Assembly: GCF_030658505.1 (NCBI RefSeq)
Contig: NZ_JAUTXR010000188.1
Coordinates: 38,126 to 102,125, forward strand
DNA from: Stenotrophomonas raiganjensis (SeqCode)
GTDB taxonomy: Bacteria > Pseudomonadota > Gammaproteobacteria > Xanthomonadales > Xanthomonadaceae
Direction: 5' to 3'
DNA: 64,000 nt
Below, piece by piece: positions 53,995-58,488 of this stretch. The position numbers and the translations under genes are program-made. Under the pieces are notes generated by a model. The model was not told the origin of the DNA and did no database searches. It saw nothing but the letters and a program-made list of their open reading frames with translations. Every line of letters begins with the position of its first letter. Position 1 is the first letter of the stretch.

Positions 53995-54090
53995 GTGCGT
54001 ATTGTGCGCGCCCTGCGCGTGGCGGAGGCATGAACGGGGCGCATGCCTGCCATGCGCCGGCAGGGCAGCGCGTCGGCGCCGCCTGCGCGC

Positions 54091-54912
54091 TCAGTCCAGC
54101 GCAGCCAGCAGCGCAGGATGGTGAGCGAACCAGAAGCGCAGGGCCCCGCTGTCGATGCCGTAGGCGCCTTTCCAGAAATCGACGGGATAGCTCCAGTCCG
54201 AAGAGCGCGAGGTGCGCGGTGCCAGGCCGACCCGGGTGAAGCGTTGCGCCAGGCCAGGATGCTCGGGGGTCTGCAGCAGCCCGGCATGGCCCAGGGCATC
54301 CAGCAGGTGACGCGCCTGCTCGACGGACAGTTTCAGGCCCGGCAGCGCGCGCACGCGTTTGACGATGGTCGACGGGGTGTCCTTGGCGTCGCTCTCGTGG
54401 TGCAGCAGCCGCAGCAGTGCCACCAGTGTGCTCATGTCGCCGGGCGCCCGTCTGGGCGTCAGATTGTGTTGTTCCAACAGGAAGGTGATGGCGTTTACGC
54501 TTCCACCGAGCACGACCCCGATGTTGTGGCGGACGCGCGCCCAGCTGGTCGGGTCGAATCTGCCTTCGCGGACCTGGCCGCAGACCGCACAGGCCAGGCT
54601 GGGGTGTGGCTGCTCCTGATGCCTGGGGAAGTTCACCATGAACGCATACGCCGACAGCCCGGCGCGCAGGTCGCTGCGGTTCTCCTGCACACCGAGGATG
54701 AAGTTGTCTGCCACATGCTGGCGGTCGGCGCGGGCATAGGCGGCGAACATCCGCACCTGGAGGGCCTCATGGCCCGGATGTTCGACGGGCCACAACAGTC
54801 CATGCTGTTCAAGTGTCGACAGGAGTTCGGGCGACGCGGTGTCCCGCTCCCGGTACTGGGTCAGCGCCTTCAGCGCCTCCTTGCTGGGCGTGTCGGGGGC
54901 TTCGTCGGCCAT
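54091..54912 (-). CDS. Uncharacterised protein
   Basis: This is a 273-residue cytoplasmic protein with no signal peptide or membrane helix and mostly helical character. One CxxC is present (SLACAVCGQV, about residue 109). Short segments look like winged-helix DNA-binding elements (LSVEQARHLLDALGHAGLL, about 194-212). I do not recognise a family. The ATG is at 54912, and the gene has normal codon use. It lies between the ABC exporter and the ECF41 module. Confidence 0.65.
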   Translation of the reverse strand: MADEAPDTPSKEALKALTQYRERDTASPELLSTLEQHGLLWPVEHPGHEALQVRMFAAYARADRQHVADNFILGVQENRSDLRAGLSAYAFMVNFPRHQEQPHPSLACAVCGQVREGRFDPTSWARVRHNIGVVLGGSVNAITFLLEQHNLTPRRAPGDMSTLVALLRLLHHESDAKDTPSTIVKRVRALPGLKLSVEQARHLLDALGHAGLLQTPEHPGLAQRFTRVGLAPRTSRSSDWSYPVDFWKGAYGIDSGALRFWFAHHPALLAALD

Positions 54913-54978
54913 GACGTTCGGATGCTTCCTGCGGGGCAGGTACAGTGCCCGGCGGTCCAGGCACTGTCAACGAAGCGC

Positions 54979-55428
54979 TCAGGGCAGTGGCGGCAGCAGC
55001 CCGGCGCCCAGCCGGTTCCAGGCATTGATCACCGCGATGCCCATGCTCAGGTCGCTGATGCCCTTCTCATCGAAGTGCGGTGCCAGTGCATCGAACGCCG
55101 CCTGCGACGGCGCGCCGTCGGTCAGCCGGGTCAGTGCCTCGGCCCAGCCCAGCGCCGCGCGCTCGCGTTCGTCGAAGAAGCGGCTCTCGTGCCATGCCGG
55201 CAGGGTGTCCAGCTTGCGCGGCTCGATGCCGCCCTTGCGCAGCGCCGTGCCGTGCATGTCCATGCAGTAGCCGCAGCCGTTGAGCTGCGACACGCGCAGG
55301 AACACCAGTTCCATCAGGGTCGGATCGATCGAGCTGTCATGCACCGCCTGGCTGGTGGCCAGCAGGCCCTTGAAGGCTTCGGCGGCCAGGCGGGTGTAAG
55401 GGACGCGGGGAGAGGCGTGGTCGGACAT
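54979..55428 (-). CDS. Carboxymuconolactone decarboxylase-family protein, ECF41 partner
   Basis: This is a 149-residue AhpD-like protein. The redox motif is QLNGCGYCMDMHG (C52, C55, H59), followed by ERERAALGWAEALTRLTDG. CMD-family proteins are alkylhydroperoxidase-type antioxidants, and a CMD gene beside the sigma factor is a known feature of group ECF41. A TGTCACG-N16-CGTC promoter lies 44-70 bp upstream, inside the 3' end of the sigma gene. The ATG at 55428 is chosen over one seven codons upstream. Confidence 0.9.
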   Translation of the reverse strand: MSDHASPRVPYTRLAAEAFKGLLATSQAVHDSSIDPTLMELVFLRVSQLNGCGYCMDMHGTALRKGGIEPRKLDTLPAWHESRFFDERERAALGWAEALTRLTDGAPSQAAFDALAPHFDEKGISDLSMGIAVINAWNRLGAGLLPPLP

Positions 55429-55464
55429 TTTCGGCTCCACGGCGGCCACGATGGCCGCCTTTCA

Positions 55465-56361
55465 CTACAAGGACGCCGCACCGTCACCGCGCGTGACAAC
55501 GTCCGGCAACTTTTCCGGATTCAACACGCTGTACACGTTGGCGATGCGGCCATCGACCACTTCGATGGTGGTGATCGAGTGCAGGCGATCGCCCTGGAAG
55601 CGCAGGATTGCCGGCTCGCCGTTGACGTAGCCCAGCTGCGCCGGATGCACCGCGCCACGGCGGGCGATGGCCCAGAACAGGCGGCCGATGCGTTCGGCGC
55701 CCAGCAGGGGCCGCACCGCCGCGGTAACCACGCCACCGCCGTCGGAGACCAGCAGCGCGTTGGCGTGCAGCAGGGCCTGGATCGCCTCGCTGTCGCCGCG
55801 CTGGGAAGCGTCCATGAAGCGCGCCAGCAGCTGCCGATGCTGGCTGGCGTCGGCGTTGAAGCGCGGTCGTCCGGCCTGCAGGCGCTGCCGGGCACGGTGC
55901 ACCAGCTGGCGGCAGTTGGCCTCGCTGTGGCCGATCAGCTCGGCGATCTCACGGTAATCGTGGTCGAAGGCTTCCTTCAGCAGGAAGGCGGCGCGTTCGT
56001 CGGGGCCGAGCTGTTCAAGCAGGGTCAGGAAAGCCACCGAGACATCGTCGGCAAACGCATGCAGCTGGGCGGGGCCGGGCGCTGGGTCGGGCTCCAGGGT
56101 GACCGCCAGTGGCTCGGCCAGCCACGGGCCGACGTAATGCACGCGCTCGCGCTTGGCTGCGCGCAGCCGGTCCAGGCCGAGCCGGGTGGTGGTGGTGACC
56201 AGCCAGGCTTCGGGGTCGCGGACGGCCGCCGGGTCGGCGCCGGACCGGCGCAACCAGGCATCCTGGACCACGTCTTCGGCGTCGGCGCGACTGCCGAGCA
56301 GGCGGTAGGCCAGCGCCATCAGGCGCGGACGGTGGGTCTGGAAAGCGGTTTCAGCGTTCAT
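55465..56361 (-). CDS. ECF41-type sigma factor with SnoaL-like C-terminal extension
   Basis: This is a 298-residue sigma factor. Region 2 holds ALAYRLLGSRADAEDVVQDAWLR (about 17-39), region 4 holds YREIAELIGHSEANCRQLVHRARQR (136-160), and a C-terminal SnoaL-like domain (about 175-298) replaces the usual anti-sigma control. ECF41 signature elements are present in variant form: WLAEP (80-84, usually WLPEP), DGGG (207-210) and NPEKL (281-285, usually NPDKL). In known ECF41 proteins this extension regulates activity in cis. The ATG at 56361 lies only ~10 bp beyond its own ECF41-type promoter, so the mRNA may be nearly leaderless. Confidence 0.93.
   Translation of the reverse strand: MNAETAFQTHRPRLMALAYRLLGSRADAEDVVQDAWLRRSGADPAAVRDPEAWLVTTTTRLGLDRLRAAKRERVHYVGPWLAEPLAVTLEPDPAPGPAQLHAFADDVSVAFLTLLEQLGPDERAAFLLKEAFDHDYREIAELIGHSEANCRQLVHRARQRLQAGRPRFNADASQHRQLLARFMDASQRGDSEAIQALLHANALLVSDGGGVVTAAVRPLLGAERIGRLFWAIARRGAVHPAQLGYVNGEPAILRFQGDRLHSITTIEVVDGRIANVYSVLNPEKLPDVVTRGDGAASL
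55472..55498 (-). promoter_or_regulatory. ECF41-type promoter of the CMD gene
   Basis: On the minus strand, TGTCACG (55498-55492), a spacer of exactly 16 nt, then CGTC (55475-55472) match the TGTCACA-N16-CGTC promoter of ECF41 sigma factors at all but one position. It lies within the last codons of the sigma gene and points into the CMD gene. Confidence 0.8.
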
Positions 56362-56370
56362 GTGGGCAAG

Positions 56371-56397
56371 GACGCCGCAGTGGCGCGTGGCGTGACA
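56371..56397 (-). promoter_or_regulatory. ECF41-type promoter of the sigma gene
   Basis: TGTCACG (56397-56391), 16-nt spacer and CGTC (56374-56371) repeat the exact layout of the CMD promoter, including TGCGG before the CGTC and CCTTG after it. This indicates autoregulation. Transcription would start within a few bases of the ATG at 56361. Confidence 0.8.
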
Positions 56398-56411
56398 GAG
56401 GGTGTGCGTGG

Positions 56412-56438
56412 ATAGTGCAGGCCAGCGGCCGGCACTAC
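56412..56438. repeat. SMAG-like palindrome before the sigma gene
   Basis: ATAGTGCAGGCCAGCGGCCG leads into GCACTAC, so one end is GTAG on the minus strand and the other is ATAG. It lies between the divergent sigma and fumarase genes. Confidence 0.8.
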
Positions 56439-56508
56439 CACCCTGCGGCCGGGGGAGGGGGTAAAATGCGGGGATTACCCCCGCCAGCCTCCAGCAAGCG
56501 AGCAAGTC

Positions 56509-58026
56509 GTGACATCGATCAAGCAGGAAGACCTCATCCAGTCCATCGCCGACGCGCTGCAGTACATCTCGTACTACCACCCGGTCGACTACATCAAGAA
56601 CCTTGCCGCCGCCTACGAGCGCGAGGAGTCGCCGGCCGCGAAGGAAGCGATGGCGCAGATCCTGATCAACTCGCGGATGTGCGCCGAAGGCCACCGCCCG
56701 ATCTGCCAGGACACCGGCATCGTTACCGTGTTCCTGGAAATCGGCATGGACGTGCGTTGGGACGACGCCACCATGGGCGTGGAAGACATGGCCAACGAAG
56801 GCGTGCGCCGCGCTTACATGCACCCGGACAACAAGCTGCGTGCCTCGGTGCTGGCTGATCCGGCCGGCAAGCGCATCAACACCAAGGACAACACCCCGGG
56901 CGTGGTCAACGTCAAGGTGGTGCCGGGCAACACGGTCGACGTGATCGTCGCCGCCAAGGGCGGTGGTTCGGAAGCCAAGACCAAGTTCGCCATGCTCAAC
57001 CCGTCCGACTCGATCGTCGACTGGGTGCTGAAGACCGTGCCGACCATGGGCGCCGGCTGGTGCCCGCCGGGCATGCTCGGCATCGGCATCGGTGGCACCG
57101 CCGAGAAGGCGATGCTGCTGGCCAAGGAAGCGCTGATGGAGCCGATCGACATCACCGAGCTGCAGGCCCGTGGAGCGTCCAACCGCATCGAAGAGCTGCG
57201 CCTGGAGCTGTACGAGAAGGTCAACGCGCTGGGTATTGGCGCGCAGGGCCTGGGTGGCCTGACCACCGTGCTCGACATCAAGATCAACGATTACCCGACC
57301 CACGCGGCCAACCTGCCGGTGGCGATGATCCCGAACTGCGCGGCCACCCGCCATGCGCACTTCACCCTGGATGGCAGCGGCCCGGTGATGCTGGACCCGC
57401 CGTCGCTGGAAGACTGGCCGAAGCTGACCTACGACGCGTCCAAGGGCATCCGCGTGGACCTGGATACGATCACCCCGGAAGACGTGGCCAACTGGAAGCC
57501 GGGCCAGACCCTGCTGCTGAACGGCAAGCTGCTGACCGGCCGCGACGCTGCACACAAGCGCATTGTCGACATGCTCAACAAGGGCGAGGAGCTTCCGGTC
57601 GATCTGAAGGGCCGCTTCATCTACTACGTCGGCCCGGTCGATCCGGTGCGTGACGAAGTGGTGGGCCCGGCCGGCCCGACCACCGCCACCCGCATGGACA
57701 AGTTCACCGAGCAGGTGCTGGCACAGACCGGCCTGCTGGGCATGGTTGGCAAGGCCGAGCGTGGCCCGGCCGCGATCGAAGCGATCAAGAAGCACAAGTC
57801 GGCCTACCTGATGGCGGTCGGTGGTTCGGCGTACCTGGTGTCCAAGGCGATCAAGGCCGCCAAGGTGGTCGGTTTCGCCGACCTGGGCATGGAAGCGATC
57901 TACGAGTTCACCGTGCAGGACATGCCGGTGACCGTGGCGGTGGATTCCACCGGCGAGTCGGTGCACAAGACCGGCCCGCGCGAATGGCAGGCCCGCATCG
58001 GCAAGATTCCGGTGGTGGTGGAGTAA
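56509..58026 (+). CDS. Class I fumarate hydratase
   Basis: This is a 505-residue 4Fe-4S fumarase (FumA/FumB type) that interconverts fumarate and malate in the TCA cycle. The iron-sulfur ligands fall in ICQDTG (C66), GAGWCPPGML and PNCAATRHAHF; the C-terminal beta domain includes GPTTATRMDKF. It is oxygen-sensitive, unlike FumC. The GTG at 56509 opens MTSIKQEDLIQS. It is divergent from the ECF41 gene, and a terminator hairpin follows. Confidence 0.95.
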   Translation: MTSIKQEDLIQSIADALQYISYYHPVDYIKNLAAAYEREESPAAKEAMAQILINSRMCAEGHRPICQDTGIVTVFLEIGMDVRWDDATMGVEDMANEGVRRAYMHPDNKLRASVLADPAGKRINTKDNTPGVVNVKVVPGNTVDVIVAAKGGGSEAKTKFAMLNPSDSIVDWVLKTVPTMGAGWCPPGMLGIGIGGTAEKAMLLAKEALMEPIDITELQARGASNRIEELRLELYEKVNALGIGAQGLGGLTTVLDIKINDYPTHAANLPVAMIPNCAATRHAHFTLDGSGPVMLDPPSLEDWPKLTYDASKGIRVDLDTITPEDVANWKPGQTLLLNGKLLTGRDAAHKRIVDMLNKGEELPVDLKGRFIYYVGPVDPVRDEVVGPAGPTTATRMDKFTEQVLAQTGLLGMVGKAERGPAAIEAIKKHKSAYLMAVGGSAYLVSKAIKAAKVVGFADLGMEAIYEFTVQDMPVTVAVDSTGESVHKTGPREWQARIGKIPVVVE

Positions 58027-58045
58027 GCCCTCCATCCCGGACCAG

Positions 58046-58072
58046 ACAACGGCGCCTCTGTGGCGCCGTTGT
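58046..58072 (+). terminator. Hairpin after fumarase gene
   Basis: ACAACGGCGCC, loop TCTGT, GGCGCCGTTGT: a perfect 11-bp stem 20 bp past the stop, followed by a G/T-rich tail. Confidence 0.75.
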
Positions 58073-58149
58073 TGTGTGGGCAAAAAATACTGATGTTCCG
58101 GTAGCGGTCGTTCTGCTACCGTCGGAACACCCTCGCACAGGACGTGTCC

Positions 58150-58488
58150 ATGGCCCTGCATCGGTTCATCGTGGTAGGCGTGCTGCTGGCCCTGGCCGGT
58201 TGCAGCACCCCGGCATCGTACGAAGGCGCGGATTTCCCCGCCTCCGCGCAGTGCCGTGTGCAGTGCCAGGCCGGCTATCGCAGCTGCATGGCGCAGAATG
58301 GCTCCCTCGGCAGCCGCCAGAGCAACTGCGAGCAGCAGGTGGTGCCGGCGCCGGACAAGCGCTGCAAGGACGTGGACAACCCCGACCTGCGCCGTGCCTG
58401 CGAACTGAAGGCGCATGACTGCACGATGCGCGCGCCGATGATGTCCTGTGGCGAACGCCGGGATTCCTGCATGAGCAGCTGCGGCTGA
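58150..58488 (+). CDS. Small Cys-rich lipoprotein
   Basis: This is a 112-residue lipoprotein (lipobox ALAGC, C18). The mature part has ten further cysteines at 35, 39, 46, 60, 72, 84, 91, 100, 107 and 111. Their spacing is mirrored: C-x3-C-x6-C at the start and C-x6-C-x3-C at the end, which suggests a pair of disulfide-linked helices. No family is recognised. The ATG at 58150 was preferred over a GTG two codons upstream. It sits between fumarase and GST genes. Confidence 0.7.
   Translation: MALHRFIVVGVLLALAGCSTPASYEGADFPASAQCRVQCQAGYRSCMAQNGSLGSRQSNCEQQVVPAPDKRCKDVDNPDLRRACELKAHDCTMRAPMMSCGERRDSCMSSCG

Follow-up and report, generated by a model that had tools for sequence, protein, structure and literature searches.

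The minus strand of positions 56400-54979 of the window, as we call the 64,000 nucleotides of Stenotrophomonas raiganjensis DNA analyzed here, carries a gene for an ECF sigma factor of 298 amino acids (56361-55465), followed by a gene for a CMD/AhpD-like protein of 149 amino acids (55428-54979). The nearest named relatives that we found belong to Stenotrophomonas maltophilia, with identities of up to 98% for the sigma protein. This protein contains the two canonical modules, sigma2 (PF04542, Sigma70_r2; 6.6e-15) and sigma4 (PF08281, Sigma70_r4_2; 1e-14), both above the Pfam cut-offs, and also exceeds the cut-offs of the NCBIfam models TIGR02937 (sigma70-ECF) and SigX4 (TIGR02957; score 324.6 against 323.25) and of the SigJ model PRK09636 (315.7 against 271). 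Its residues 6-285 match Mycobacterium tuberculosis SigJ (PDB 5xe7; E=1.4e-50) inclusive of the C-terminal extension, which ends in the string NPEKL (residues 281-285), and the match stops before a short tail that is discussed below as encoded by a promoter. A SnoaL-like extension of about 100 residues therefore appears to be present on the strength of the NCBIfam and SigJ matches, with the Pfam SnoaL-like family DUF4440 scoring 22.1, under its cut-off of 25.2. The agreement of the Pfam, NCBIfam and SigJ matches bears out the earlier assignment of the gene to the ECF41 group. Judged from its sequence, the locus appears to be an ECF41 member in each testable feature except the linker between sigma2 and sigma4, which reads WLAEP (HYVGPWLAEPL), one substitution away from the WLPEP motif described in ECF41 sigma factors (PMC3426412).

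The CMD protein, the presumed target of the sigma factor, is recovered by Pfam PF02627 (4.9e-17) and by NCBIfam TIGR00778 (ahpD_dom; 52.7 against a cut-off of 27.8), and matches PDB 2o4d (PA0269) at 2.7e-36; PADLOC returns no match for its gene. The CxxC signature of the AhpD core is seen as CGYC in the string NGCGYCMDMH, and this signature and the AhpD core make chemistry on peroxides or thiols a reasonable guess for its activity. On the same strand, 66 nt downstream of the CMD gene, lies a gene for a protein of 273 amino acids (54091-54912), to which no Pfam, NCBIfam or PADLOC family could be assigned; it could be part of the CMD transcript.

Two copies of the motif TGTCACG-N16-CGTC occur on the minus strand exactly where they had been described, each with a spacer of precisely 16 nt. 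The first, hereafter P1 (56371-56397; TGTCACG-CCACGCGCCACTGCGG-CGTC), is the candidate promoter of the sigma gene, with the -35 element at 56397-56391 and the -10 element CGTC at 56374-56371. The second, P2 (55472-55498; TGTCACG-CGCGGTGACGGTGCGG-CGTC), is the candidate promoter of the CMD gene and lies within the final codons of the sigma ORF, whose stop codon TAG occupies 55467-55465. Both sites read TGCGG-CGTC-CTTG, so that the shared flanks stand as originally described save for a first C in the claimed CCTTG, which counts the final C of CGTC twice. Measured from CGTC, the sigma ATG at 56361 is 9 nt and the CMD ATG at 55428 is 43 nt away, close to the values of about 10 and 44 given before. 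In shuffles of the window a loose form of the pattern (spacer 15-17) has a mean of 0.57 matches and two were reached in 8 of 100, whereas GTCACR-N16-CGTCC has a mean of 0.12 and two were reached in 1 of 100. The pair is thus moderately improbable within the window alone, which is suggestive only, and for this reason the loci were compared across genomes; it is this comparison that decides for the promoter pair.

The loci were drawn from three sources: 121 genomes (115 of them with some match at E<=0.001, other ECF sigma factors included), a named collection that contributed 32 loci, and a set of 297 genomes from the same family. Among these last, 124 have a match at E<=1e-40, and 80 of the 144 listed places were used; 12 more were already in the set, and of the 52 unused ones two are partial genes, 49 have at most 48% identity and one has 92%. 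The resulting pool holds 149 loci, among them 145 distinct sigma coding sequences, close relatives included; ten paralogous loci (L081-L090) and one partial locus (L122) were kept out of the pooled counts. The pattern GTCAC[AGT]-N16-CGTC occurs in the 150 nt upstream of the sigma gene (P1) in 142 of the 145 distinct loci and near the sigma 3' end or before the CMD gene (P2) in 132, as against 0-3 loci for each spacer of 10-15 or 17-22 and 0-6 for the reversed pattern. Among the first 69 distinct genes the strict form [TC]GTCAC[AG] has the 16-nt spacer at 69 of 69 P2 and 66 of 66 P1 sites, and its seventh -35 base is G or A, G being found in both copies in the window; values of 1.00 for the core motif bases follow from the construction of the base tally. 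Genes with at least 58% identity (n=126) have P1 without exception and P2 in 118, leaving eight with no pattern-defined P2. The 19 genes at 52% identity or less have P1 in 16, P2 in 14 and an 8-9 nt gap between P1 and the ATG in one, and thereby include all three P1 misses and five of the 13 P2 misses. Of the ten paralogous loci (38-47% identity), four have P1 and none has P2; the twin sites are therefore not general to the ECF41-like genes of these genomes, and their layout is a property of this orthologous group and some of its relatives.

The comparison across loci thus supports the proposal of twin promoters, serving autoregulation and a CMD target. The idea itself is already published, and twin ECF41 promoters are a known pattern, because among loci of the order ECF-then-COE Wecke et al. 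(2012) found promoters of the ECF gene in fewer than 30%, of the COE gene in almost 50% and of both in 20% (PMC3426412). Both the promoter and the role of CMD genes as ECF41 targets have been established experimentally in other bacteria (PMC3426412; PMC6180224), and in Bacillus licheniformis and Rhodobacter sphaeroides transcription of the target depends on the sigma factor (PMC3426412). One could nevertheless propose that the promoters are genuine and are transcribed by a different ECF sigma factor of the same genome. ECF promoters can overlap in their use. Moreover, 16 ECF sigma genes are annotated in S. maltophilia K279a (PMC9769791), and two genomes in which this sigma factor has no full-length match (G029 and G055) also carry a match to the motif ahead of a LysR-type gene. 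Against this, TGTCACA is the group-specific -35 element found beside ECF41 genes and responds to them in two bacteria (PMC3426412), both sites flank this very gene in nearly all orthologous loci, and the LysR site falls in an upstream region that is conserved throughout in five loci that were compared. We accordingly regard transcription by another sigma factor as highly improbable, and consider it likely that the ECF41 factor itself would use both sites.

A scan of the genome with TGTCACR-N16-CGTCC, as the original prediction had proposed, returned four sites versus one for a control pattern, which we identify as P1, P2, one before the LysR-type gene and one on a further contig (C82) whose context was viewed by eye. 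The LysR site (TGTCACGATTGTCCCATCCCCGACGTCC; L015, G000:C176:22292-22319) has its CGTC 13 nt before the gene. Its pattern is matched in 35 of the 121 genomes, a second match in one of them (G009) being its P1. As the whole upstream region of the LysR gene is conserved, with the flanks preserved too in the five compared loci, this site was rejected as a target and is probably unrelated to the sigma factor. A complete, self-contained regulon, as had been suggested, is plausible. Separately, a second family of ECF41-like sigma factors with about 45% identity (L086, L088 and L089) has GTCACA-N16-CGTC 9 nt before the presumed start, no downstream copy of the motif and a CMD-like match upstream; these represent a separate ECF41 locus, whose message is possibly leaderless as well.

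The position of P1 relative to the sigma gene is conserved in most loci. Of 142 distinct loci, 121 have their first in-frame ATG 8-9 nt after CGTC; one has it at 4 nt and the other 20 at 19-33 nt. The 8-9 nt gap holds for 120 of the 126 closer genes (at least 58% identity) and for 66 of 66 strict P1 sites of the first set. In the ECF41 operon of Sinorhizobium meliloti the mapped transcription start is 9 nt after CGTC (PMC3616915). Given this start and the 8-9 nt gap, transcription of the sigma gene is predicted to begin at C56362 or at A56361 of the AUG itself, that is, one base before the start codon or at it. Such a message would have no Shine-Dalgarno element, and its translation would then have to be leaderless. 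The published distance also moves the transcript ends: 56364 and 55465 had been claimed, and 56362/56361 and 55463 are now predicted for the sigma and CMD messages respectively. The near-leaderless sigma message of the original prediction is itself supported by the conserved gap.

The distribution of ribosome-binding sequences is consistent with this picture. One of GGAG, GAGG, AGGA or AAGG is found within 20 nt before the sigma ATG in 3 of the 69 genes of the first set, exactly those with leaders of 26-29 nt, and in the larger set a slightly looser string is found at 5 of the 122 loci with a short gap and at 10 of the 20 with a long one. The remaining 10 of these 20 longer-leader loci are without such a string, and include five members of a clade of six (L142, L149, L155, L156, L171 and L172; 61-65% identity) in which the gap is 30-33 nt. 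This clade is unlike both main classes and argues against a universal leaderless rule.

P2 covers sigma codons 288-297, and its burial in coding DNA was expected to constrain the last codons of the gene. In 63 aligned sigma genes with P2 inside the ORF, counts from which are weighted by close relatives, Val289 is GTC in 62 of 62, Ala296 is GCG in 56 of 56 alanines and Ser297 is TCC in 62 of 63, while the codon of Thr290 is ACG or ACA in 62 of 63. Elsewhere in the same genes ACC makes up 85% of threonine codons and GCC 63% of alanine codons. The residues between Val289/Thr290 and Ala296/Ser297 vary widely. Conserved columns with at least four available codons rarely have an invariant codon (4 of 113 in the 63 genes, 8 of 120 in the 60 nearer genes). 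Loci in which promoter and tail have come apart provide the stronger test. When the tail is described by the signature [VA]T-x5-[ATPGSVC]-S within the last 16 residues, it occurs in all 98 distinct proteins whose ORF contains P2, in none of the 31 whose P2 lies past the stop codon, in none of three with a gene inserted and in one of 13 with no P2 found; the short-gap loci, duplicates included, give 86 of 86 buried versus 0 of 31. P2 lies in coding DNA in the window and in most loci, as had been noted for the window, but 34 of the 132 distinct P2 loci have it outside that ORF. Three of these (L037, L043 and L048), from genomes of the Stenotrophomonas group, have a gene of about 160 codons between sigma and CMD (L037:2422-2907, L043:2422-2901, L048:2431-2907), which is Imm26-like by Pfam in two of the three; in them P2 and the hairpin described below remain intact beside the CMD gene and the sigma tail is different. 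A FastTree phylogeny was built from the sigma proteins after removal of the tail, and support is weak for 59 of its 142 inner branches. On it, at least 7 changes between buried and outside P2 are required (insertion loci counted), and 5 between leaderless and leader-bearing sigma genes.

These observations bear on whether P2 is a promoter at all, as the VT...AS tail might instead be a conserved feature of the protein, with the match in DNA merely following from it. At the amino-acid level Val289, Thr290 and Ser297 are indeed conserved, being found in 62, 63 and 63 of the 63 genes. However, the 31 distinct loci with P2 past the stop codon keep the DNA motif and have no residue signature, the three insertion loci keep it far downstream next to CMD with a different sigma tail, the third positions of the codons are held constant contrary to the codon usage of these genes, and the match to SigJ stops at residue 285. 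We therefore give a protein-level origin of the motif almost no credence. The fixed codons and the tail signature that tracks buried P2 bear out the anticipated constraint, and support, at the level of sequence comparison, the conclusion that P2 dictates the tail residues. The sigma tail beyond NPEKL is probably dispensable for activity.

A different objection grants P2 promoter status and makes it a minor one, with sigma and CMD being expressed mainly as one operon from a housekeeping promoter or from P1. The genes are adjacent and on the same strand, no T-run terminator is seen between them by eye, and bicistronic ECF41/CMD transcripts have been proposed in R. sphaeroides (PMC3426412). Yet P2 is retained in 132 of the 145 distinct loci, even where another gene separates sigma from CMD, and this arrangement is in our estimate rather unlikely to be the main one. 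We favor expression of the CMD gene predominantly from its own promoter P2.

The predicted product of P2 differs from that of P1 at its 5' end. The ninth base after the P2 CGTC is G in 124 of 132 sites, and G is also the mapped start in both B. licheniformis and R. sphaeroides (PMC3426412), suggesting that the CMD message would begin with G at 55463. A few nucleotides further is a stem-loop, GGCGGCCA-TCG-TGGCCGCC (55441-55459), recognized from its fold and inverted repeat, and directly after it a Shine-Dalgarno-like GGAG (55435-55438). The CMD leader in the window folds with -16.9 kcal/mol (z -2.39; 4 of 200 shuffles equally good). A perfect inverted repeat with arms of at least 6 nt, beginning 2-6 nt past the ninth base, is present in 93 of 132 P2 leaders; the 142 P1 leaders all lack it, and among 2900 control segments taken from sigma ORFs 117 have one. 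Of the 93 repeats, 82 start 3-4 nt past the predicted start, and many of those listed among the 39 P2 leaders with no perfect hairpin are off by one or two bases. A Shine-Dalgarno-like string is present in 67 of 69 CMD leaders, when sought in a loose window around an ATG chosen by script; in one Stenotrophomonas clade (7 of 69) the ATG lies 30-31 nt from CGTC, where the script probably picked the wrong ATG. Searching 54000-58200 with Rfam gave no match at gathering scores. These comparisons predict a hairpin only 3-4 nt away from the 5' end of the CMD message, a feature absent after P1. The hairpin was also considered as a terminator of the sigma message, a role that was not adopted because no T-run follows it by eye.

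The palindrome after P2 could alternatively be a DNA operator that overlaps the start region and binds a separate regulator, rather than a stem-loop in the mRNA. Pairing was assessed in an alignment of 43 leaders that we chose from 62 distinct ones. As might be expected of an operator, two inner pairs are almost fixed (43 of 43 and 42 of 43), and 16 of the 43 leaders do not form the innermost A-U pair. On the other side, 92.2% of the cells of the eight-pair stem are paired, versus 26-60% when the arms are slid, and three outer pairs of the eight show changes on both sides with pairing kept (12, 4 and 1 of 43), giving 17 cells, a value reached by 0 of 500 shuffles. In the same 43 leaders covariation is modest: three pairs changed on both sides were reached by 110 of 500 shuffles and the observed pair types by 388 of 500, and the RNAalifold covariation term is only -0.28, the CCGG core being nearly invariant. 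The consistent place of the palindrome just past the predicted start, never after P1, also argues against an operator. We thus view the operator as the less probable reading, though one that deserves serious consideration, and prefer the stem-loop, which would stabilize the CMD message by shielding its 5' end.

Stem-loops at the 5' terminus are known to protect mRNAs, the leader of Escherichia coli ompA being an example. The CMD leader resembles the ompA type in having a stem-loop a few nucleotides from the predicted 5' end and ahead of the ribosome-binding site, a likeness that we take as a lead only. Closer to hand, the ECF41 loci of B. licheniformis (ydfG) and R. sphaeroides (RSP_0606) share with the present one a sigma factor with a C-terminal extension, no anti-sigma factor, a CMD target, the promoter TGTCACA-N16-CGTC and a start at G, which is predicted here (PMC3426412). 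They differ in that their CMD leaders are of 22 and 23 nt with a ribosome-binding site, whereas the leader here carries a stem-loop, and in that a bicistronic arrangement was proposed for R. sphaeroides, whereas each gene here has its own promoter (PMC3426412). Further differences of the present locus are a P1 of the leaderless type, a P2 buried in coding DNA and G rather than A as the seventh -35 base. The S. meliloti pair SMb20029-rpoE9 is likewise an ECF41 system with the same promoter motif and spacer, and the CMD gene is the only target found in it; there, in contrast, CMD precedes the sigma gene, likely in one operon with a single mapped start (PMC6180224, PMC3616915).

In the main text of Wecke et al. 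(2012) the word "leaderless" has no occurrences (PMC3426412), and no leaderless ECF41 message emerged from the titles and opening abstract lines of open-licence papers, exclusive of supplements, though Table S1 of Wecke et al. may already list Stenotrophomonas promoters. Nor did a hairpin leader of ECF41 targets emerge from the ECF41 literature searched. Thus the split between leaderless and hairpin messages and the promoter-coded tail with its natural uncouplings appear to be new here, as far as open-licence papers without their supplements extend. In the sections covered, studies of sigma-P and sigma-N in S. maltophilia concern other genes and do not name this sigma gene; it may be among the low-expressed ECF genes that they tabulate.

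Taken together, it is likely that the locus is an ECF41 module in which P1 provides autoregulation and P2 drives the CMD gene, with a leaderless sigma message, a CMD message bearing a hairpin and GGAG, and a sigma tail dictated by P2. The sigma factor would be kept inactive by its own C-terminal extension and not by an anti-sigma factor; in the ECF41 proteins of B. licheniformis and R. sphaeroides partial truncation of this extension raised promoter activation and full truncation abolished it (PMC3426412). A signal would relieve the extension, upon which the sigma factor would transcribe its own gene from P1, in positive autoregulation, and the adjacent CMD/AhpD-like gene from P2. Wecke et al. 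observed neither sensitivity to oxidants nor a reproducible ECF41 growth phenotype in the two species tested (PMC3426412). The P1 message would be translated as a leaderless mRNA, and the P2 message, with its G start, 5' stem-loop and GGAG before the AUG, should be stable and well translated.

More tentatively, and at somewhat under even odds in our judgment, one sigma factor and one promoter sequence would feed two opposite mRNA designs fixed by evolution, a leaderless one for the sigma factor and a Shine-Dalgarno-led one for the target protected by a 5' hairpin, with P2 at the same time writing the sigma tail. If this is true, the split between the messages would set the ratio of sigma factor to target post-transcriptionally, and synthesis of the sigma factor could depend on conditions that favor leaderless translation. 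The set of loci, with at least seven switches between buried and outside P2, offers a clean case in which protein sequence is dictated by a promoter. For the widespread ECF41 sigma factors, the predicted message ends, the natural replacement of the tail in the insertion loci and the codon-level footprint of the promoter give sharp predictions that are cheap to examine.
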